Shown here: positions 4,740-13,375 of the stretch, in pieces
Position numbering within the stretch: position 1 is the stretch's first letter
Layout of the letters: every line of letters starts with the position of its first letter
NCBI GenBank assembly: GCA_003217735.2
Contig: CP031585.1
Span: 744,001-808,000, forward strand
Reading direction: 5' to 3'
DNA: 64,000 nucleotides
DNA from: Marinibacterium anthonyi
GTDB taxonomy: Bacteria; Pseudomonadota; Alphaproteobacteria; Rhodobacterales; Rhodobacteraceae
The notes under the pieces: generated by a model
Database searches by the model: none
Seen by the model: the letters and a program-made list of their open reading frames with translations, nothing else
What the model was told of the DNA's origin: nothing
Program-made: the position numbers and the translations under genes

Positions 4740-5704
4740 CTGAAACCTTTCCTCGCCGGACTGACCGGCATGTCTTGCGACGATTGGAGGAATGATTTCA
4801 AAAAGTACCGATCAGATCAACCGGTATCTTTTCGGTATCAATCTGGGTCGTGCAGCGGGCCGCAACATGGGTTCTGGTTTGTCCTGTCGCATGCATCAAA
4901 GGCAGAAACCTTGGGGCGCACGGTGCCGGAGCTTATGGCGGATACGGGGTAAGGGAAGCGGGCCGCGCCCAAGACTTGACGTTTGACGCGTTCGAGGTCG
5001 GACCTGGTGACCTTATGCCATGCTGAAAGGGGAATGTGGCCCATTCGGCGGACACGTCCGGTCTGTTTCGCGCGAACAACCGCGCCAGTGACGTGCGGCA
5101 TATCACTTCGGATCCGTGGCACACCTTTGAACCGCGCTGGCGCCTGATCCAGTGTCCCGCCGTCCTTGGGGGTATCGGTCGTGACGACTGCACTTCCCCT
5201 GGTCACAATATCGCTAAGCGAATGCCGGCCGTGCCGGCGGATGCCAGGCGCAGCTTTTGCCGCGCTCGCGGGTGTTGCGTCTGGACCTTTACCGGAACCG
5301 TGATGGTCCGCGTCACTGCCGCGGGCCGCTTCTTGTCACGTTGCCCTTCGATTGGGTGACTCATGGAGGCGTAGCAATACCGCTGACGGGTCGCCTCGCC
5401 ACGGCCTTTGCCTGAACACCGGATCCCGGCAACAGGACGTTCAGTATATTGATGCAATCACGGCCGTCCGTCGGTCCAAGTCTCCCCGCATTGTGGCGCA
5501 CGCTGGGTTGCCAAGTGGACTTGCGCGATTCCGTAAGCGTTGCGTGGACCCCCGACAGGGTGGTGGACGAGACGCTGCAATATGAACAACGGCGCCGCGC
5601 CGTGGTGCGGTGGAAAAACCGATGCCGTCTTTGTTCAAACACATTGGTGGGCGCATTGGCCTGGGATGTGTCGGCATCAGCGGCGCGTTCGGAGCGCAGG
5701 CGTC
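4740..5704. other. Gene-poor interval (~965 bases)
   Basis: I find no convincing gene. Short frames exist on both strands (for example 4838-5206 and 5203-5457 on the minus strand) but are Arg/Pro-rich, match no family I recognise and lack clear ribosome sites. By eye the part around 4785-4870 is richer in A+T than the flanks, so it could hold the promoter of the minus-strand amino-sugar operon. The remainder may be decayed coding sequence. Confidence 0.5.
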
Positions 5705-8145: not shown

Positions 8146-9120
8146 TTAGCGTTTTTCGCCCGGGCGCGCCCATTGGGCGGCGACGCGGCGTACAAAGGCG
8201 GTGCAATCTGCGGCGTCGGTGATGGGCAGCATGTGGCCCCGGTCCGGCAGGTGATCGCAACCCAGCCCGTATTTCGCCATGCCGTCGCCCTGCAGCGCGA
8301 CATCCAGCAGCGCGTCCTCGGCGCCAAACAGGATCGCGCCGGGGGTCTTCAGGCGGTCGTCGTATCGGCGGCTGACCTCGCCGACCCGGTCGGCGGCCAT
8401 GTAATCCTCGACCGTGGCGAGAAAGGCGTGCGGGCGCAGGCCAAGCGCGCCGCCACCGCGTTCCAGGAAATCGGCGGGCCAGGGTTCTGGGCGAAAGACC
8501 TCGTCCAGCGTCTGCACCGCATGGGACCGCGCCATCGGGATCGCCCAGGTATGGGCCAGCAGGCGGCGCATGGTCCGGTTGGGCATGTTCAGCCCGTCGA
8601 AAGCGGACGAAGGCTTGTCGTTGGGCACCGTCAGCGGCGCGATCAGGGCCAGCGCGGCCGGGGTATCGGGACGGTCGACCGCCATGGCCAGCGACACCGC
8701 GCCGCCCAGCGAATGACCGACCAGAACGGGGCGCGTGACCCCAAGCCGATCCAGCAGGTCCCAGATCATCCGGGCCTGTTCGCCCAGATCGGCCTGTGCC
8801 GGGCCGTCGCGGCGCGAATAGCCGCAGCCGGGACGATCGACCACCACCAGGCGAAAGTCGTCCCTGAGCAGGTCGGTCATGGCATAGGTGAAATGCTGCA
8901 TGTACCCACCCAGTCCGTGGATCATCACCAGGACAGGCGCGTCCCGGGGTCCCAGGTCGAGGTAGTGGATCGCCCCTCCGGCGACTTCGGCGATCCGGCC
9001 GGCCTGCGGAACCATCGAGGGCACGTCCGCCGCCAGCTTTTGCGTCTTGCGATACCCGATCCCAAGGAACACGCCCATCGAAACGAGCATCAGGGCGAGG
9101 ATGACGATGATGATCTGCAT
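8146..9120 (-). CDS. Membrane-anchored alpha/beta hydrolase
   Basis: Alpha/beta-hydrolase-fold protein of 324 residues with an N-terminal membrane helix (IIIVILALMLVSMGVFLGI). The oxyanion-hole region reads MIHGLGGYMQHFTYA, the nucleophile elbow is GHSLGG (about 140), an acid is expected in LFGAEDALLD and the catalytic His in LPDRGHMLPI. The fold resembles haloperoxidase, epoxide hydrolase and esterase-like hydrolases; the substrate cannot be read from sequence. It is transcribed away from the alkaline phosphatase gene, and the shared 200-base promoter region contains a Zur-box-like palindrome. Confidence 0.88.
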   Translation of the reverse strand: MQIIIVILALMLVSMGVFLGIGYRKTQKLAADVPSMVPQAGRIAEVAGGAIHYLDLGPRDAPVLVMIHGLGGYMQHFTYAMTDLLRDDFRLVVVDRPGCGYSRRDGPAQADLGEQARMIWDLLDRLGVTRPVLVGHSLGGAVSLAMAVDRPDTPAALALIAPLTVPNDKPSSAFDGLNMPNRTMRRLLAHTWAIPMARSHAVQTLDEVFRPEPWPADFLERGGGALGLRPHAFLATVEDYMAADRVGEVSRRYDDRLKTPGAILFGAEDALLDVALQGDGMAKYGLGCDHLPDRGHMLPITDAADCTAFVRRVAAQWARPGEKR

Positions 9121-9211
9121 CTGGCTGACTCTTCCGTCCGGACCGGGCGGTTCACCCGGGCCGACACTGACAGACGCGCCTCATATTGCAAGCGCAGCAT
9201 GCTCTCGGCGC

Positions 9212-9224
9212 GTTATGGTATAAC
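9212..9224. promoter_or_regulatory. Zur-box-like palindrome in divergent promoter
   Basis: The arms CGTTAT and ATAACG (9211-9225) flank GGT, giving GTTATGGTATAAC. This matches the proteobacterial Zur core GTTATANTATAAC at 11 of the 12 fixed positions, from memory of that consensus. It lies about 100 bases before the alkaline phosphatase ATG and about 90 before the hydrolase ATG. Zur binding is an inference. Confidence 0.55.
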
Positions 9225-9322
9225 GTAATTCGCAGAAATGACTGGGAAATCACGCGATGGTGATCATTCTGTTACATGGCGGATCTACACCGCGAGCGAT
9301 CAATTATCCGATGGAGACGGAC

Positions 9323-10807
9323 ATGAAAAAGACGCTGTCGCTGATCGCGATGCTCGCCGGCACGACCGCCATGGCCCAGGACCTGCCGCAGCAGTCGAGC
9401 GCCTGGTACACCGATGCCCAGAGCATCCTTGAACGCCATCTCGCCCGTACGCCGAACACCAAGAAGGCCAAGAACATCATCCTGATGATCGCCGACGGCA
9501 ACGGCGTGGGCACCAACTATGCCACCCGTGTCTACGTCGGCCAGAAGAACGGCGGCATGGGCGAGGAATACGTTCTGCCCTACGAACAGCCGGACTTCTA
9601 CAGCGCGCTGGTGAAGACCTACAACATCAACGCCCAGACCCCGGATTCGGCGCCCACCGCCGGGTCGATGAACACCGGCGTCAAGCAACGCTTCAACCTG
9701 ATCAACCTTGGCGAGAACGCGATCCACGACGATTGCACCACCGAGGCCGACAACAAGCTGACGCTGTTTTCCGAGCTGATGACGGATGCGGGCAAGTCGG
9801 TCGGCGTGGTCACCACCGCGCGCCTGACCCATGCCACGCCGGCGGCCGCCTATGCCAAGACCGCCAACCGCAACTGGGAAGACGCCGTGCCGGAAGGCTG
9901 CGACGGATCCACGGACATCGCGACCCAGCTGATCGACGCGCTGGAAGCCGGCACCGTCGACATCGCCATGGGCGGTGGCGCGCGCTATTTCGTGCCCAAG
10001 GGCGCGGCGACCCCGAACGGCGGCTCGGGCCACCGTCCCGACGATGTCGACCTGCTGGCCCGCGCGCAGGCCGCCGGCATCCAGTACGCCCATGACAAGG
10101 ACACGCTGGCCGCGCTCGACAAAAGCAAGCCGATCCTGGGCATGTGGACCGACAGCCATGCCTCCTACGCCGTGGACCGTCCCGACAGCGAACCGTCGCT
10201 GGCCGACATGACCAAGGCCGCCATCGAATACCTCAGCCAGAACGAAGACGGCTATTACCTGGAAATCGAAGCCGGCCGCGTCGACCACGCCAACCACGCC
10301 GGCAACGCCTACCGCGCCGTCACCGATGGCGAGGCCTGGGCCGAGGCCGTCGCCATGGCCGACCAGCTGACCGACGACGAGGACACGCTGCTGATCGTCA
10401 CCGCGGACCACGAACACGCCATCGCCTTCAACGGCTATTGCGGCCGCGGCTCGGACATTCTGGGCCTGTGCATGGGGGTATCGCAGAAGGGCATCGAGAA
10501 CGACGGCGAACCGCTGACCGCCGCCGACGGCAAGCCCTACACCGTGATCGGTTACCTCAACGGGTCGGGTTCGGTGCTGAAGGAACAGGCTGACGGCACC
10601 TTCTCGGGCGGCCGTGGCGACCTGACCCAGGACCAGGTGACCGACGTCGATTACGTGCAGGAGGCGCTGATCCCGATGTCCTCGGAATCGCACTCGGGCG
10701 AAGACGTGGCGGTGTTCGCCAAGGGCCCCGGCGCGTATCTGTTCGATGGCGTCCTGGAACAGAACTACATCTTCCACGTGATGAACCACGCGGCCAACGC
10801 CGAATGA
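9323..10807 (+). CDS. Alkaline phosphatase, secreted
   Basis: Periplasmic phosphomonoesterase of the PhoA superfamily, 494 residues; enzymes of this family use two zinc ions and a magnesium ion. Start MKKTLSLIAMLAGTTAMA at 9323 is a signal peptide with a GGAGACGG ribosome site upstream; the open frame begins further out. Motifs in order: metal-binding Asp in LMIADGNGVG, nucleophile Ser in TPDSAPTAGS, metal-binding EIEAGRVDHANHAGN, VTADHEHAIA and the last His ligand in SESHSGEDV. A strong hairpin follows the gene, so cotranscription with the ABC genes downstream may be partial. The Zur-like palindrome upstream suggests zinc rather than, or as well as, phosphate control. Confidence 0.93.
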   Translation: MKKTLSLIAMLAGTTAMAQDLPQQSSAWYTDAQSILERHLARTPNTKKAKNIILMIADGNGVGTNYATRVYVGQKNGGMGEEYVLPYEQPDFYSALVKTYNINAQTPDSAPTAGSMNTGVKQRFNLINLGENAIHDDCTTEADNKLTLFSELMTDAGKSVGVVTTARLTHATPAAAYAKTANRNWEDAVPEGCDGSTDIATQLIDALEAGTVDIAMGGGARYFVPKGAATPNGGSGHRPDDVDLLARAQAAGIQYAHDKDTLAALDKSKPILGMWTDSHASYAVDRPDSEPSLADMTKAAIEYLSQNEDGYYLEIEAGRVDHANHAGNAYRAVTDGEAWAEAVAMADQLTDDEDTLLIVTADHEHAIAFNGYCGRGSDILGLCMGVSQKGIENDGEPLTAADGKPYTVIGYLNGSGSVLKEQADGTFSGGRGDLTQDQVTDVDYVQEALIPMSSESHSGEDVAVFAKGPGAYLFDGVLEQNYIFHVMNHAANAE

Positions 10808-10829
10808 TCCTGATCGCGTGACTGTCCGG

Positions 10830-10853
10830 AGAGGGCCGGGTCTCCGGCCCTCT
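10830..10853 (+). terminator. Strong hairpin after alkaline phosphatase
   Basis: Perfect 10-base arms AGAGGGCCGG and CCGGCCCTCT with a four-base loop, 22 bases after the stop and followed by TCC rather than a T run. Probable terminator or attenuator. TCCGGA boxes at 10825, 10861 and 10883 surround it, the last two forming a second 8-base inverted repeat (TTCCGGAC/GTCCGGAA). Confidence 0.6.
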
Positions 10854-10909
10854 TCCACATTCCGGACCGGGCGTGTTTCCTGTCCGGAAAGACGAAAGGA
10901 GGGCATCCC

Positions 10910-11344
10910 ATGCCTCTCGACCGCCGGGCCTTCATGGCCGCCACCGCCGCGACGCTGATCCTGCCGGGACGGGGCCGTGCCGCGGCGGATCCGATCAAGT
11001 TGCGCGATCTCTACAACAAGGACCGAAGCTTTTCTGATCTTGCGCTGTCGCTGGAAGGCCGGCGCATCCGCGTCGAAGGCTACATGGCGCCCCCGCTGAA
11101 GGCCGACAGCACGTTCTTTGTCCTGACCAAGATCCCCATGGCCGTCTGCCCGTTCTGTGAAAGCGAGGCGGAATGGCCCGACGACATCATGGCCGTCTAT
11201 ACCAAGCGGGTGGTCGACGTGGTGCCGTTCAACGTGGGTATCGTGACCAGCGGCACGCTGGACCTGGGCGCGCACACGGATGCCGAAACCGGGTTCCTCA
11301 GCATGATCCGGCTGGACGACGCGACCTATGACCGGCGCGGCTGA
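10910..11344 (+). CDS. Tat-exported small protein of zinc-type ABC operon (DUF3299-like)
   Basis: Protein of 144 residues beginning MPLDRRAFMAATAATLILPG, a twin-arginine signal with a cut near GRAAA. The mature domain reads LEGRRIRVEGYMAPPL, then FFVLTKIPMAVCPFCESEAEWP, ending with a small beta-rich part. The CPFC motif could bind metal or form a disulphide. The AAAGGAGG ribosome site before 10910 is strong. The next gene, an ABC ATPase, starts inside its 3' end (17 bases shared). As I recall, small periplasmic proteins of this type accompany FtsX-like zinc ABC systems (for example the Pseudomonas PA4063-PA4066 cluster); this link is from memory and should be tested by search. Confidence 0.75.
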   Translation: MPLDRRAFMAATAATLILPGRGRAAADPIKLRDLYNKDRSFSDLALSLEGRRIRVEGYMAPPLKADSTFFVLTKIPMAVCPFCESEAEWPDDIMAVYTKRVVDVVPFNVGIVTSGTLDLGAHTDAETGFLSMIRLDDATYDRRG

Positions 11345-12053
11345 GGCGCTGCGCATCGCGGGCCTGACGGTGCCGGGGCGGGGCGGGCGGACGATCCTGT
11401 CGGTGGATGAATTGACCGTGCCGGGGGGCCAGAGCCTTGGGATCCGGGGGGCGTCGGGCGCGGGCAAGTCGACGCTGCTTTACGCCATCGCCGGCCTGAT
11501 CGAGGGCGCGACAGGGCAGGTGCTGTGGAACGGGACCGACCTGCTGGGTCTGACGGCGGACCGGCGGGGGGCGTTTCGGGCGGCGCACATGGGCTTCATC
11601 TTCCAGGATTTCCTGTTGTTCGAGGAACTCAGCGGGATCGACAATGCCAGTTTGCCGGCGCTCTTTGCCCCGCGTGCCAAGCGCGCGGCGATCGGCCAAA
11701 GGGCGCGGGACCTGCTGGACCGGCTGGGCATTGCGGAACCGGCACGGGGCGTCGACAGCTATTCGGGCGGCGAACGCCAGAGGGTCGGCATTGCCCGGGC
11801 GCTGGCCAATGACGCGGGCATCCTGCTGGCCGACGAGCCGACCGCCAGCCTGCATCGCGATGCGGCGGATGCGCTGATCCGGGACCTGTCCGACATGGCG
11901 GGCGAACAGGGCAAGACGTTGATCGTGGTCAGCCATGACACGGCGCTGCTGGACCGGATGGACCGGGTGGTGACCGTTGCCGACGGGCGGATCGAGACTG
12001 GGAACGCGACCGGGGCCGAGACCGGGGCCGAGACCGGGGACGTCTTCGCATGA
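11328..12053 (+). CDS. ABC transporter ATP-binding protein (LolD/MacB type)
   Basis: Nucleotide-binding subunit of 241 residues with Walker A GASGAGKST (about 44-52), Q-loop FIFQDF, signature YSGGERQRVG, Walker B ILLADEP and the H-loop His in VVSHD. This is the subfamily that pairs with FtsX-like permeases. It overlaps the upstream gene by 17 bases and the permease start by ATGA (12050-12053), so the three form one translational unit. The C-terminal tail is a short in-frame repeat (ATGAETGAETG) encoded by 12-base DNA repeats and is unlikely to be part of the catalytic domain. Confidence 0.93.
   Translation: MTGAAEALRIAGLTVPGRGGRTILSVDELTVPGGQSLGIRGASGAGKSTLLYAIAGLIEGATGQVLWNGTDLLGLTADRRGAFRAAHMGFIFQDFLLFEELSGIDNASLPALFAPRAKRAAIGQRARDLLDRLGIAEPARGVDSYSGGERQRVGIARALANDAGILLADEPTASLHRDAADALIRDLSDMAGEQGKTLIVVSHDTALLDRMDRVVTVADGRIETGNATGAETGAETGDVFA
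12009..12039. repeat. In-frame 12-base tandem repeat
   Basis: ACCGGGGCCGAG occurs twice in tandem (12009-12020, 12021-12032) followed by ACCGGGG. It encodes the Glu-Thr-Gly-Ala tail of the ABC ATPase and may vary in copy number between strains. Confidence 0.85.
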
Positions 12054-13375
12054 TGTCGCTCTGGTACGGGTTCGGCGCCTGGGCGCAGGATGCAATATGG
12101 CTGGTCCTGATGCTGTTGCCGGCGGCGCTCGTGGGGTCTGTTGTCCTGCGGGGGCTGCGGCCCTGGCCGCTGGTGCGGGCCATGCTCTGGCGGTTCCGGG
12201 GGCCGAACCTTCTGTTCGTGCTGCTGATCGCCGTGGCCGTCGGGCTGGGGATCGGCCTGCTGGCCCAGGAACGGGGGCTGCGCGCCGGGACGGCGGCAGC
12301 GGCCGACAAGTTCGACCTGGTCGTCGCCGCGCCGGGCAGCGAGATGACCATGCTGCTGGCCGCCGTCTACCTGCAGCCCAGCGATGTCGGGCTGCTGTCG
12401 GGCGCGATCTATGACGAGGTCGCGCATCACCCGAACGTGGCCCTGGCTGCGCCGCTGGGCTTCGGCGACAGCTACCTCGGCGCTCCGGTGGTCGGCACCA
12501 TCGGCGATTTCGTCCTGCACCTGAGCGACGGCAACATCGAGGGCCGGTTGTTCGAGACGTCCGCCGAGGCAGTGGCCGGCGCCCTGGCTCCGGTGACGAT
12601 CGGCGGGCATTTCTCGCCCGCCCATGGCATCGGCGACGTGGCCGGGGACGAGGACAACGCCCATGCCCACGAGGGCGCGGAGTACACGGTTGTGGGCCGG
12701 ATGGCGCCCACCGGTACGCCCTGGGACCGGGCGCTGATCGTTCCGATCGAGGCGGTCTGGGAGGTTCACGGCCTGGCCAACGGACATGGCGCGGACGCGG
12801 GTGACGCCATCGGCCCGCCCTTCGATCCGGAATATTTCCCCGGCACCCCGGCCATCGTGGTCCGGTCCGACGCGCTCTGGGCCAATTACGCGCTGCGTTC
12901 GGCCTTTACCCGCGATGCCGAGTCGATGGCCTTTTTCCCCGGCGCCGTGCTGTCCCAGCTGTACCGGGTGATGGGCGACGTACGCCAGGCCATGTCGGTC
13001 ATGGCGCTGGTCAGCCAGGTGCTGGTGGCGGCAAGCGTGCTGGTCGGGCTGCTGATCCTGATCCGCCTGTTCCGCCGTCAACTGGCGCTGCTGCGCGCCC
13101 TGGGCGCGCCGGCGCGGTTCGTCTTCGCGGTGGTCTGGTCCTACGCGGCGAGCCTTCTGGCAGCCGGTGCCTGCCTGGGCCTGGTCACCGGCTGGCTGTC
13201 GGCGCAGCTGATCAGCCGGATCCTGTCGGTGCGCACCGACATCGTGATCACCGCGCCGCTGGGCTGGCCGGAGTTTCATTTCGCCGCCGGATTTCTCAGC
13301 GTCGCGACGGTCCTGTCGCTGTTGCCCGGGCTGGCCGTGCGCCGCATTCCCATCGTCGACGCCCTGCGCAGCTGA
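12050..13375 (+). CDS. FtsX-like ABC permease with histidine-containing loop
   Basis: Membrane subunit of 441 residues. Helices lie near residues 15-40 and 60-75, then a periplasmic domain of about 240 residues, then three C-terminal helices (about 320-345, 365-390, 415-435) as in FtsX/MacB permeases. The periplasmic domain carries HAHEGAEYTVVGRMAPTGTP and VHGLANGHGADAGD, with several His and acidic residues suited to metal binding. Family members exist for lipoprotein export, macrolides and, in PA4065/ZrgB-type systems, zinc; the His-bearing loop, the DUF3299-like partner and the upstream Zur-like box favour zinc here, by inference. Confidence 0.88.
   Translation: MMSLWYGFGAWAQDAIWLVLMLLPAALVGSVVLRGLRPWPLVRAMLWRFRGPNLLFVLLIAVAVGLGIGLLAQERGLRAGTAAAADKFDLVVAAPGSEMTMLLAAVYLQPSDVGLLSGAIYDEVAHHPNVALAAPLGFGDSYLGAPVVGTIGDFVLHLSDGNIEGRLFETSAEAVAGALAPVTIGGHFSPAHGIGDVAGDEDNAHAHEGAEYTVVGRMAPTGTPWDRALIVPIEAVWEVHGLANGHGADAGDAIGPPFDPEYFPGTPAIVVRSDALWANYALRSAFTRDAESMAFFPGAVLSQLYRVMGDVRQAMSVMALVSQVLVAASVLVGLLILIRLFRRQLALLRALGAPARFVFAVVWSYAASLLAAGACLGLVTGWLSAQLISRILSVRTDIVITAPLGWPEFHFAAGFLSVATVLSLLPGLAVRRIPIVDALRS

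Follow-up and report, generated by a model that had tools for sequence, protein, structure and literature searches.

Among described systems, the closest to the locus reported here are the PA4063-PA4066 genes of Pseudomonas aeruginosa and the ZrgABCDE genes of Vibrio. In the portion of PMC11481552 at hand, PA4063-66 is Zur regulated, and PA4064-PA4065 is proposed to export a pyochelin-cobalt complex. Our locus lies in a 64,000-nucleotide stretch of Marinibacterium anthonyi (assembly GCA_003217735.2, contig CP031585.1, positions 744,001 to 808,000), hereafter the window, and consists of a gene for a secreted alkaline phosphatase (phoA) followed by genes for a small protein exported by the twin-arginine translocation (Tat) route, an ATP-binding cassette (ABC) ATPase, and an FtsX-like permease, with a Zur-type box ahead of phoA. 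Like PA4063-66 and Zrg, it combines a Zur-type site, an ABC ATPase with a separate FtsX-type permease, and a small exported protein; unlike them, it contains no ZrgA (DUF2796) protein, Pfam places no DUF3299 domain in its small protein and no MacB_PCD domain in its permease, and phoA precedes the unit.

Three further systems invite comparison. Paracoccus denitrificans has a Zur regulon (znuABC-zur, aztABCD, and COG0523) with a very similar palindromic motif and, as in M. anthonyi, a divergent znuA/zur promoter with two boxes; as a difference from our locus, neither phosphatase nor FtsX is mentioned in the main text of PMC5387054. A classical Pho-regulated phoA resembles the window gene in encoding an alkaline phosphatase and in the Pho boxes found in many relatives, and differs in lacking the linked ABC-FtsX unit and the Zur boxes of some relatives; the window itself has only a weak Pho-like site. 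LolCDE and MacB share the permease fold and the ATPase subfamily, whereas the window ATPase scores far below the LolD cut-off and its unit has a phosphatase neighbor, conserved histidines, and a Tat partner. Our preferred reading, to which we assign a probability of about 0.6, is that the promoter of a conserved PhoA-Tat-ATPase-FtsX module has recruited a Zur-binding site, that zinc-loaded Zur would repress the module, and that the ABC machine would handle periplasmic metal for PhoA.

The Zur-type box ahead of phoA

The core GTTATGGTATAAC was located at positions 9212-9224, with its letters checked in the window, as the palindromic center of a 21-mer, GCGCGTTATGGTATAACGTAA, at 9208-9228 (annotated without strand from the matrix and the exact core); as a sequence site, the box is confirmed. 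Exact matches to GTTATNNNATAAC occur three times in the 6.81-Mb genome and not at all for a reversed-pattern control. With up to one mismatch, 16 genome sites compared with 13 control sites, so that the simple pattern is weak beyond exact matches and undecisive alone. A Zur matrix was therefore built from zur/znuA promoters of 27 genomes (our own, 2 of the same genus, and 24 of the same family), with no phoA promoter used, and a Pho matrix from the pstS promoters of the same genomes. The window box scored 16.8 bits on the Zur matrix, a value reached by none of 200 shuffles; the 99.9% point of pooled shuffles was 13.3, and the 27 control pstS promoters reached 8.0 at most. Cut-offs of 15 for Zur and 8.5 for Pho were chosen after the first scores were known, and counts were computed for cut-offs from 8 to 20.

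Two other pattern matches were set aside. A one-mismatch site ahead of pstS shares part of its sequence with the Pho box there, and the exact GTTATNNNATAAC site at C1:298234-298246 scores only 6.3 on the matrix and adjoins no recognized zinc gene. The latter site precedes a gene for a small secreted protein without a Pfam match.

The genome encodes a Zur protein (C1:2215675-2216142; PF01475, 26.9 bits against a cut-off of 23.1) opposite znuA (PF01297) and adjoined by genes reading as znuC and znuB. A family search had not listed this gene. The promoter between znuA and zur carries a box with one core mismatch, scoring 14.9 (a member of the training set), together with another, weaker box. Zur-type sites were also found at another znuA-type set, which includes a COG0523 gene and is carried by a 180-kb contig (C3:3000-12000; 16.2), at a cluster of ZrgA (PF10986/DUF2796), ABC, and FtsX genes (C1:4308500-4316500; 22.2), and at a lone COG0523 GTPase gene (26.7). 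The motif is thus shared by zinc loci of a genome that possesses a zur gene, two points that an earlier note on this DNA had proposed as checks, and the near-perfect Zur core that the note had read at 9212-9224 is borne out by the matrix score together with the conservation at related phoA promoters described below.

In the excerpt of PMC5387054 available, P. denitrificans Zur binds promoters with near-identical sites in a zinc-dependent manner in gel shifts. The pden4140 site given there, GTTACGATATAACAT, differs at 1 of 15 positions from the box of a same-genus relative, GTTACGTTATAACAT (genome G001), and at 3 of 15 from the window box. On these sequence grounds, the box is very likely a Zur switch, and we refer to it as a putative Zur site.

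Conservation of the module and of its promoter sites

Of 295 family genomes, 26 (our own included) contain a phoA relative at E ≤ 1e-100, and one more, G001, came from the genus search, giving 27 loci. In 23 of these, phoA is followed by genes for the Tat protein and the ABC ATPase, and FtsX is present in all 21 with sequence that far; among the four exceptions, the contig of G001 breaks off beyond phoA, and a Tat-ATPase unit is not seen in G216, G068, and G110. Searching from the other side, the Tat family was detected in 42 of 394 family genomes, six of which (G048, G085, G101, G127, G144, and G274) lacked a phoA match at 1e-100; in three of these six loci the PhoA match is weaker or fragmented, and in the other three there is none. 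Among the matches listed, 80 loci were selected by Tat similarity alone: a PhoA match was present in 78, the others being L184, which starts at a contig end, and L214, and the Tat protein, ATPase, and FtsX were all present in 77. The loci include members of Roseobacteraceae, Paracoccaceae, Stappiaceae, Aurantimonadaceae, Devosiaceae, Halomonadaceae, and Rhodospirillaceae. The linkage of phoA to the ABC genes is conserved across genera rather than peculiar to this genome, mostly without a detectable Zur box. One variant arrangement was seen in Rhodobacter capsulatus SP108, where phoA and the Tat gene lie together with a Zur site of 16.5 and the ABC and FtsX matches are found on the opposite flank, in reverse orientation.

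Among the first 27 loci, eight phoA promoters scored at least 15 on the Zur matrix: the window (G000, 16.8), its same-genus relatives G001 (25.0) and G002 (22.9), and G228 (19.9), G067 (17.3), G254 (16.2), G207 (21.5), and G183 (20.8). The other 19 scored 3.9 at most. When these loci were scanned over their whole length, every score of at least 10 fell in a phoA promoter or in the gap between phoA and the Tat gene. For a broader count, 126 loci, some of the 80 Tat-selected ones among them duplicating others, were reduced to 100 with a distinct phoA match of at least 430 amino acids (identical PhoA proteins removed) and to 98 with at least 200 bp upstream; Phaeobacter sp. J2-8, whose phoA promoter scores 24.1, was left out of this set. 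Zur scores of at least 15 were obtained in 20 of the 98 promoters, compared with 1 of 588 random 280-bp segments from the same loci, which may include true boxes since no exclusion was applied. Over the 781 kb of the 80 Tat-selected loci, hits of at least 15 lay in 14 phoA promoters, 2 phoA/Tat gaps, and 3 places elsewhere.

Pho scores of at least 8.5 were found in 28 of the 98 promoters. Both sites occurred in 6, Zur only in 14, Pho only in 22, and neither in 56. Mutual exclusion of the two was considered and rejected (6 promoters have both; Fisher P = 1.0); Zur and Pho sites occur independently of each other at phoA promoters. In the six dual-site promoters, the Zur center lies 25 to 73 bp upstream of the Pho center. 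On a phoA tree built by a quick method, the Zur label required 17 changes, at least 12 of them forced by starred branches, compared with a mean of 18.6 for shuffled labels; the label is therefore scattered rather than derived from a single origin. The Zur site is conserved at related phoA promoters, in a minority of scattered lineages.

Sites were also found within the module. Of 95 phoA/Tat gaps, 2 contained a Zur site of at least 15 (those of G228 and G369) and 7 a Pho site of at least 8.5, and Phaeobacter sp. J2-8 has a further Zur box of 22.5 in this gap, directly ahead of the Tat-ATPase-FtsX unit. Boxes of both kinds in the gap imply that the ABC unit itself can receive a Zur or a Pho site. 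A box of 22.1 near the standalone Tat unit of G144 was discounted: it lies about 210 bp from the Tat gene and nearer a divergent gene, and so carries little weight.

Products of the phoA-linked genes

phoA occupies positions 9323-10807 on the plus strand (PF00245, 4.3e-103, 345.9 bits against a cut-off of 24.4). Its start is likelier at 9323 (MKKTLSLIAML..., as in two same-genus genomes) than at 9257. The nearest sequence match of solved structure is 4kjd, an intestinal-type alkaline phosphatase (3.2e-92, residues 28-490 aligned), and in sequence the enzyme stands nearer to animal-type enzymes (E ≤ 1e-75) than to those of E. coli type (top entry near 4e-28). The segments PDSA, THA, E..R.DH..H, TADH, and SHSGED are matched in the 4kjd alignment; we take these to be the ones bearing the catalytic serine and the metal ligands. 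Ahead of the gene, a weak Pho-box-like site lies at 9258-9279 on the plus strand; it scores 7.7 bits, below the 8.5 cut-off, with none of 200 shuffles as high, and its second repeat reads as degenerate. In the quick tree, which has some open forks, the window phoA branches separately from its two same-genus counterparts, though the divergent hydrolase gene adjoins all three; an exchange of the gene is possible.

The gap from phoA to the Tat gene spans 102 nucleotides and contains a strong hairpin of 12 pairs at 10828-10855 (plus strand, stem search). Stems of at least 9 pairs were found in 87 of 95 such gaps (median, 12), compared with 5 of 95 random 102-nucleotide windows from the same loci, and the longest stem in shuffled gaps averaged 6.4. 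The hairpin stays in place among relatives despite a changing sequence. Between 1 and 4 T residues follow within 8 bases 3' of the stem in 74 of the 95 gaps, and a terminator scan of the window did not flag the hairpin. It may keep the ABC genes at a lower expression level than phoA or may halt transcription; the box ahead of phoA would then control the ABC unit by read-through only.

The small Tat-exported protein is encoded at 10910-11344, the ABC ATPase at 11328-12053 (PF00005, 5.4e-29), and the FtsX-like permease at 12050-13375 (PF02687), all on the plus strand. The earlier note had described a phosphatase and an overlapping unit of three genes; the three domain assignments (PF00245, PF00005, and PF02687) and the overlaps hold, while phoA stands 102 nucleotides apart with the hairpin between.

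The small protein has no Pfam match, DUF3299 included; a TAT_signal match was found in 5 of 13 family members, and a CPFC...WP segment is invariant in the family alignment. Its AlphaFold model (mean predicted local distance difference test [pLDDT] score, 79) has as its top match in the PDB 4hsp, PA4066 of P. aeruginosa (E of 1.2e-3, probability 1.0, template modeling [TM] score 0.52); no PDB match reaches an E of 0.001, and the matches after 4hsp are only slightly worse. These next matches are, we presume, largely oligonucleotide/oligosaccharide-binding (OB)-fold proteins. With a marginal E value and near-equal next matches, the likeness to PA4066 is suggestive and no proof. Profile comparison of the Tat family with 16 DUF3299 sequences was colinear over 83 columns and weak (probability 12.5%, P = 0.0023), and a PDB sequence search with the family gave nothing better than an E of 0.51.

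The best match of the ATPase is LolD, at 153.6 bits and thus below the curated cut-off of 307.75. In the permease, H192, H207, H240, and H246 are conserved in 100, 99, 100, and 95% of 117 rows (104 distinct, the window being entered twice). PF12704 (MacB_PCD) does not match it at E ≤ 10, and a PDB sequence search returned nothing at E ≤ 1. The model (pLDDT 88.8) resembles the folds of LolE and MacB, a type that acts on the periplasmic side. Structure alignments used 28 of 31 planned rows for the Tat set (3 with an internal stop were dropped) and, for the permease set, the window plus 26 of 68 usable.

The comparison with Zrg was made against the ZrgA cluster of this genome and the PA4066 structure rather than other Pseudomonas or Vibrio sequences. 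The window permease is 25% identical over 354 columns to the FtsX protein of that cluster, with which it shares AHG and TGTPxDR...H segments and histidines H192 and H240. With two DUF3299 matches just beyond it (C1:4308053-4308988) counted in, the cluster spans C1:4308053 to about C1:4311624, and its permease carries a MacB_PCD (PF12704) match. The resemblance to PA4063-PA4066 and Zrg claimed in the earlier note is therefore good as regards the top fold match and the permease, with the qualification that the genome has a ZrgA cluster at another locus, which makes the window unit a paralogous system. The DUF2796 protein that the note had reported missing is indeed absent from the window unit by Pfam, whereas a PF10986 protein is present in its own cluster.

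In relatives, the gene after FtsX can encode an exported PCuAC-like protein (for example, L189 7466-8059, L254 7408-7953, L229 up to 6058, L257 4232-4708, and L228 7618-8130). PF04314 was matched in 4 of 4 scanned, and the five read are His rich, with stretches that close with HSHAGH[QN]H or a similar sequence. A PCuAC-like match occurs anywhere in the locus in 49 of 126 loci, duplicates included. Zur-type sites of 13 to 18 lie right before this fifth gene in Roseibium, Roseitalea, and L228; hits of at least 15 were seen in L192 and L254 (Roseibium), and weaker ones of 13.6 and 13.5 in L189 and L229. In a Roseicyclus metagenome-assembled genome (L257), a Zur-type site of 28.0, with no gene assigned to it, lies at position 5390, beyond the PCuAC gene. 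In the window, the gene after FtsX is a DAO-family gene and no PCuAC-like gene is present there; by reading, none of the five PCuAC matches elsewhere in the genome (one below the cut-off) has a long His-rich N terminus like that encoded by the fifth gene.

Proposed role of the module and competing explanations

If the box acts as a Zur operator, zinc-loaded Zur would probably repress the window unit, and zinc shortage would raise PhoA and, by read-through, the ABC machine. Relatives with a Pho site on the same module would respond to phosphate shortage instead of, or besides, zinc shortage, and both kinds of site would have been gained or lost repeatedly. PhoA is the constant partner of the unit, from which we infer that the machine probably serves the metal supply of PhoA, through periplasmic scavenging, loading, or removal of the wrong metal rather than ZnuABC-like import. 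In the part of PMC8316085 consulted, PhoA activity drops without zinc in E. coli. A stronger form of the proposal, in which the Tat-ATPase-FtsX(-PCuAC) set is a dedicated ATP-driven machine for PhoA metallation whose promoter repeatedly switches or combines PhoB and Zur control, we regard as tentative.

Several results weigh against recruitment of the module to Zur repression. At a cut-off of 15, 78 of the 98 phoA promoters are without a box, and the Zur label is no more clustered on the tree than in shuffles (86 of 500 as low). About 50 bp separate the window box from the presumed Pho/-35 region downstream of it, and the box is not clearly over a promoter, a scan having found no sigma-70-like site; lying upstream of the Pho-like site, the box could act otherwise than by repression. 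With the hairpin in between, expression of the ABC unit may be independent of phoA, and induction by zinc starvation of a phosphatase that needs zinc is counterintuitive. A genome-wide scan with a 21-position sequence-only model at E ≤ 10, a search of low power, did not report the window box and so gives no support; its sole report was the COG0523 zinc site at C1:5186285 (E of 0.6), and it also missed the sites of the ZrgA cluster and of contig C3. The word phosphatase is likewise missing from the main text of PMC5387054, an RNA-seq study of zinc in a Paracoccus strain unchecked for the module.

The main rival takes up the proposal made for PA4064-PA4065: the ABC unit would export a metallophore or metal complex, and phoA would be a neighbor under a shared regulator rather than its client. 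The Zur regulation and proposed pyochelin-cobalt export of PA4063-66 (PMC11481552, in the portion cited above), the PA4066 fold match of the Tat protein, and the resemblance of the permease to MacB as well as LolE all fit such an exporter. The position of phoA ahead of the unit in 23 of 27 loci and the presence of a PhoA match in 78 of the 80 Tat-selected loci, across many families, are hard to explain without a functional tie, and we consider the exporter possible and clearly less probable than service to PhoA.

Somewhat less probable still is that Zur acts as an activator, aiding transcription of the zinc-requiring phosphatase from upstream of the Pho/-35 region when zinc is present, so that the enzyme would be produced only while its metal can be had. 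The 25- to 73-bp offset of Zur from Pho centers in the six dual-site promoters is a usual position for an activator. Activation by Zur is reported in Caulobacter (PMC4176598) and Synechococcus (PMC9337993), in the passages of these papers at hand. Against this, the boxes before the Tat unit (G228, G369, and J2-8) and before the Roseibium PCuAC gene lie about 5 to 60 nucleotides from the start codon, as for a repressor, and most Zur targets are repressed. The box could also serve the divergent alpha/beta-hydrolase gene (8146-9120, minus strand), since it lies between the two genes; a hydrolase match stands beside phoA only in the 3 same-genus loci of the 27 and in none of the 80 Tat-selected loci, whereas it is phoA that the box accompanies in other genera, which leaves this improbable. 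That the match is due to chance or to another regulator is least likely of all: the one-mismatch counts hardly above control and the low-scoring exact site at C1:298234-298246 would fit, and the matrix score and the conservation at corresponding phoA promoters speak against it.

To our knowledge, how a secreted alkaline phosphatase obtains its zinc in zinc-poor seawater is an open question. If Zur has been recruited to the conserved PhoA module, the Pho and Zur sites would tie zinc and phosphate together at a single promoter, the ABC unit would be a candidate machine, and the stronger form of the proposal would give zinc-phosphorus colimitation in marine bacteria a genetic basis; the data hint at one conserved gene set that deals with shortages of both zinc and phosphate. 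According to the excerpt of PMC5348524, phosphatases may make Pseudovibrio need more metal when phosphate is limiting. Among the matches listed in the open-access literature searched, no Zur-regulated alkaline phosphatase or phoA-ABC operon was found: the word phosphatase is absent from the main texts of PMC6103462 and PMC4176598, alkaline phosphatase is absent from the main text of PMC7174638 and appears merely as an abbreviation or reagent in PMC6336718 and PMC5007448, and in the available part of PMC8316085 it is an assay control.

Two minor observations concern other zinc loci. On the divergent side of the ZrgA cluster of this genome, two genes read as membrane-fusion-like proteins and one as a resistance-nodulation-division (RND)-pump-like protein. 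In the same-genus genome G001, a second Zur-like reading frame (G001:C23:1361-1822) contains one in-frame TGA.

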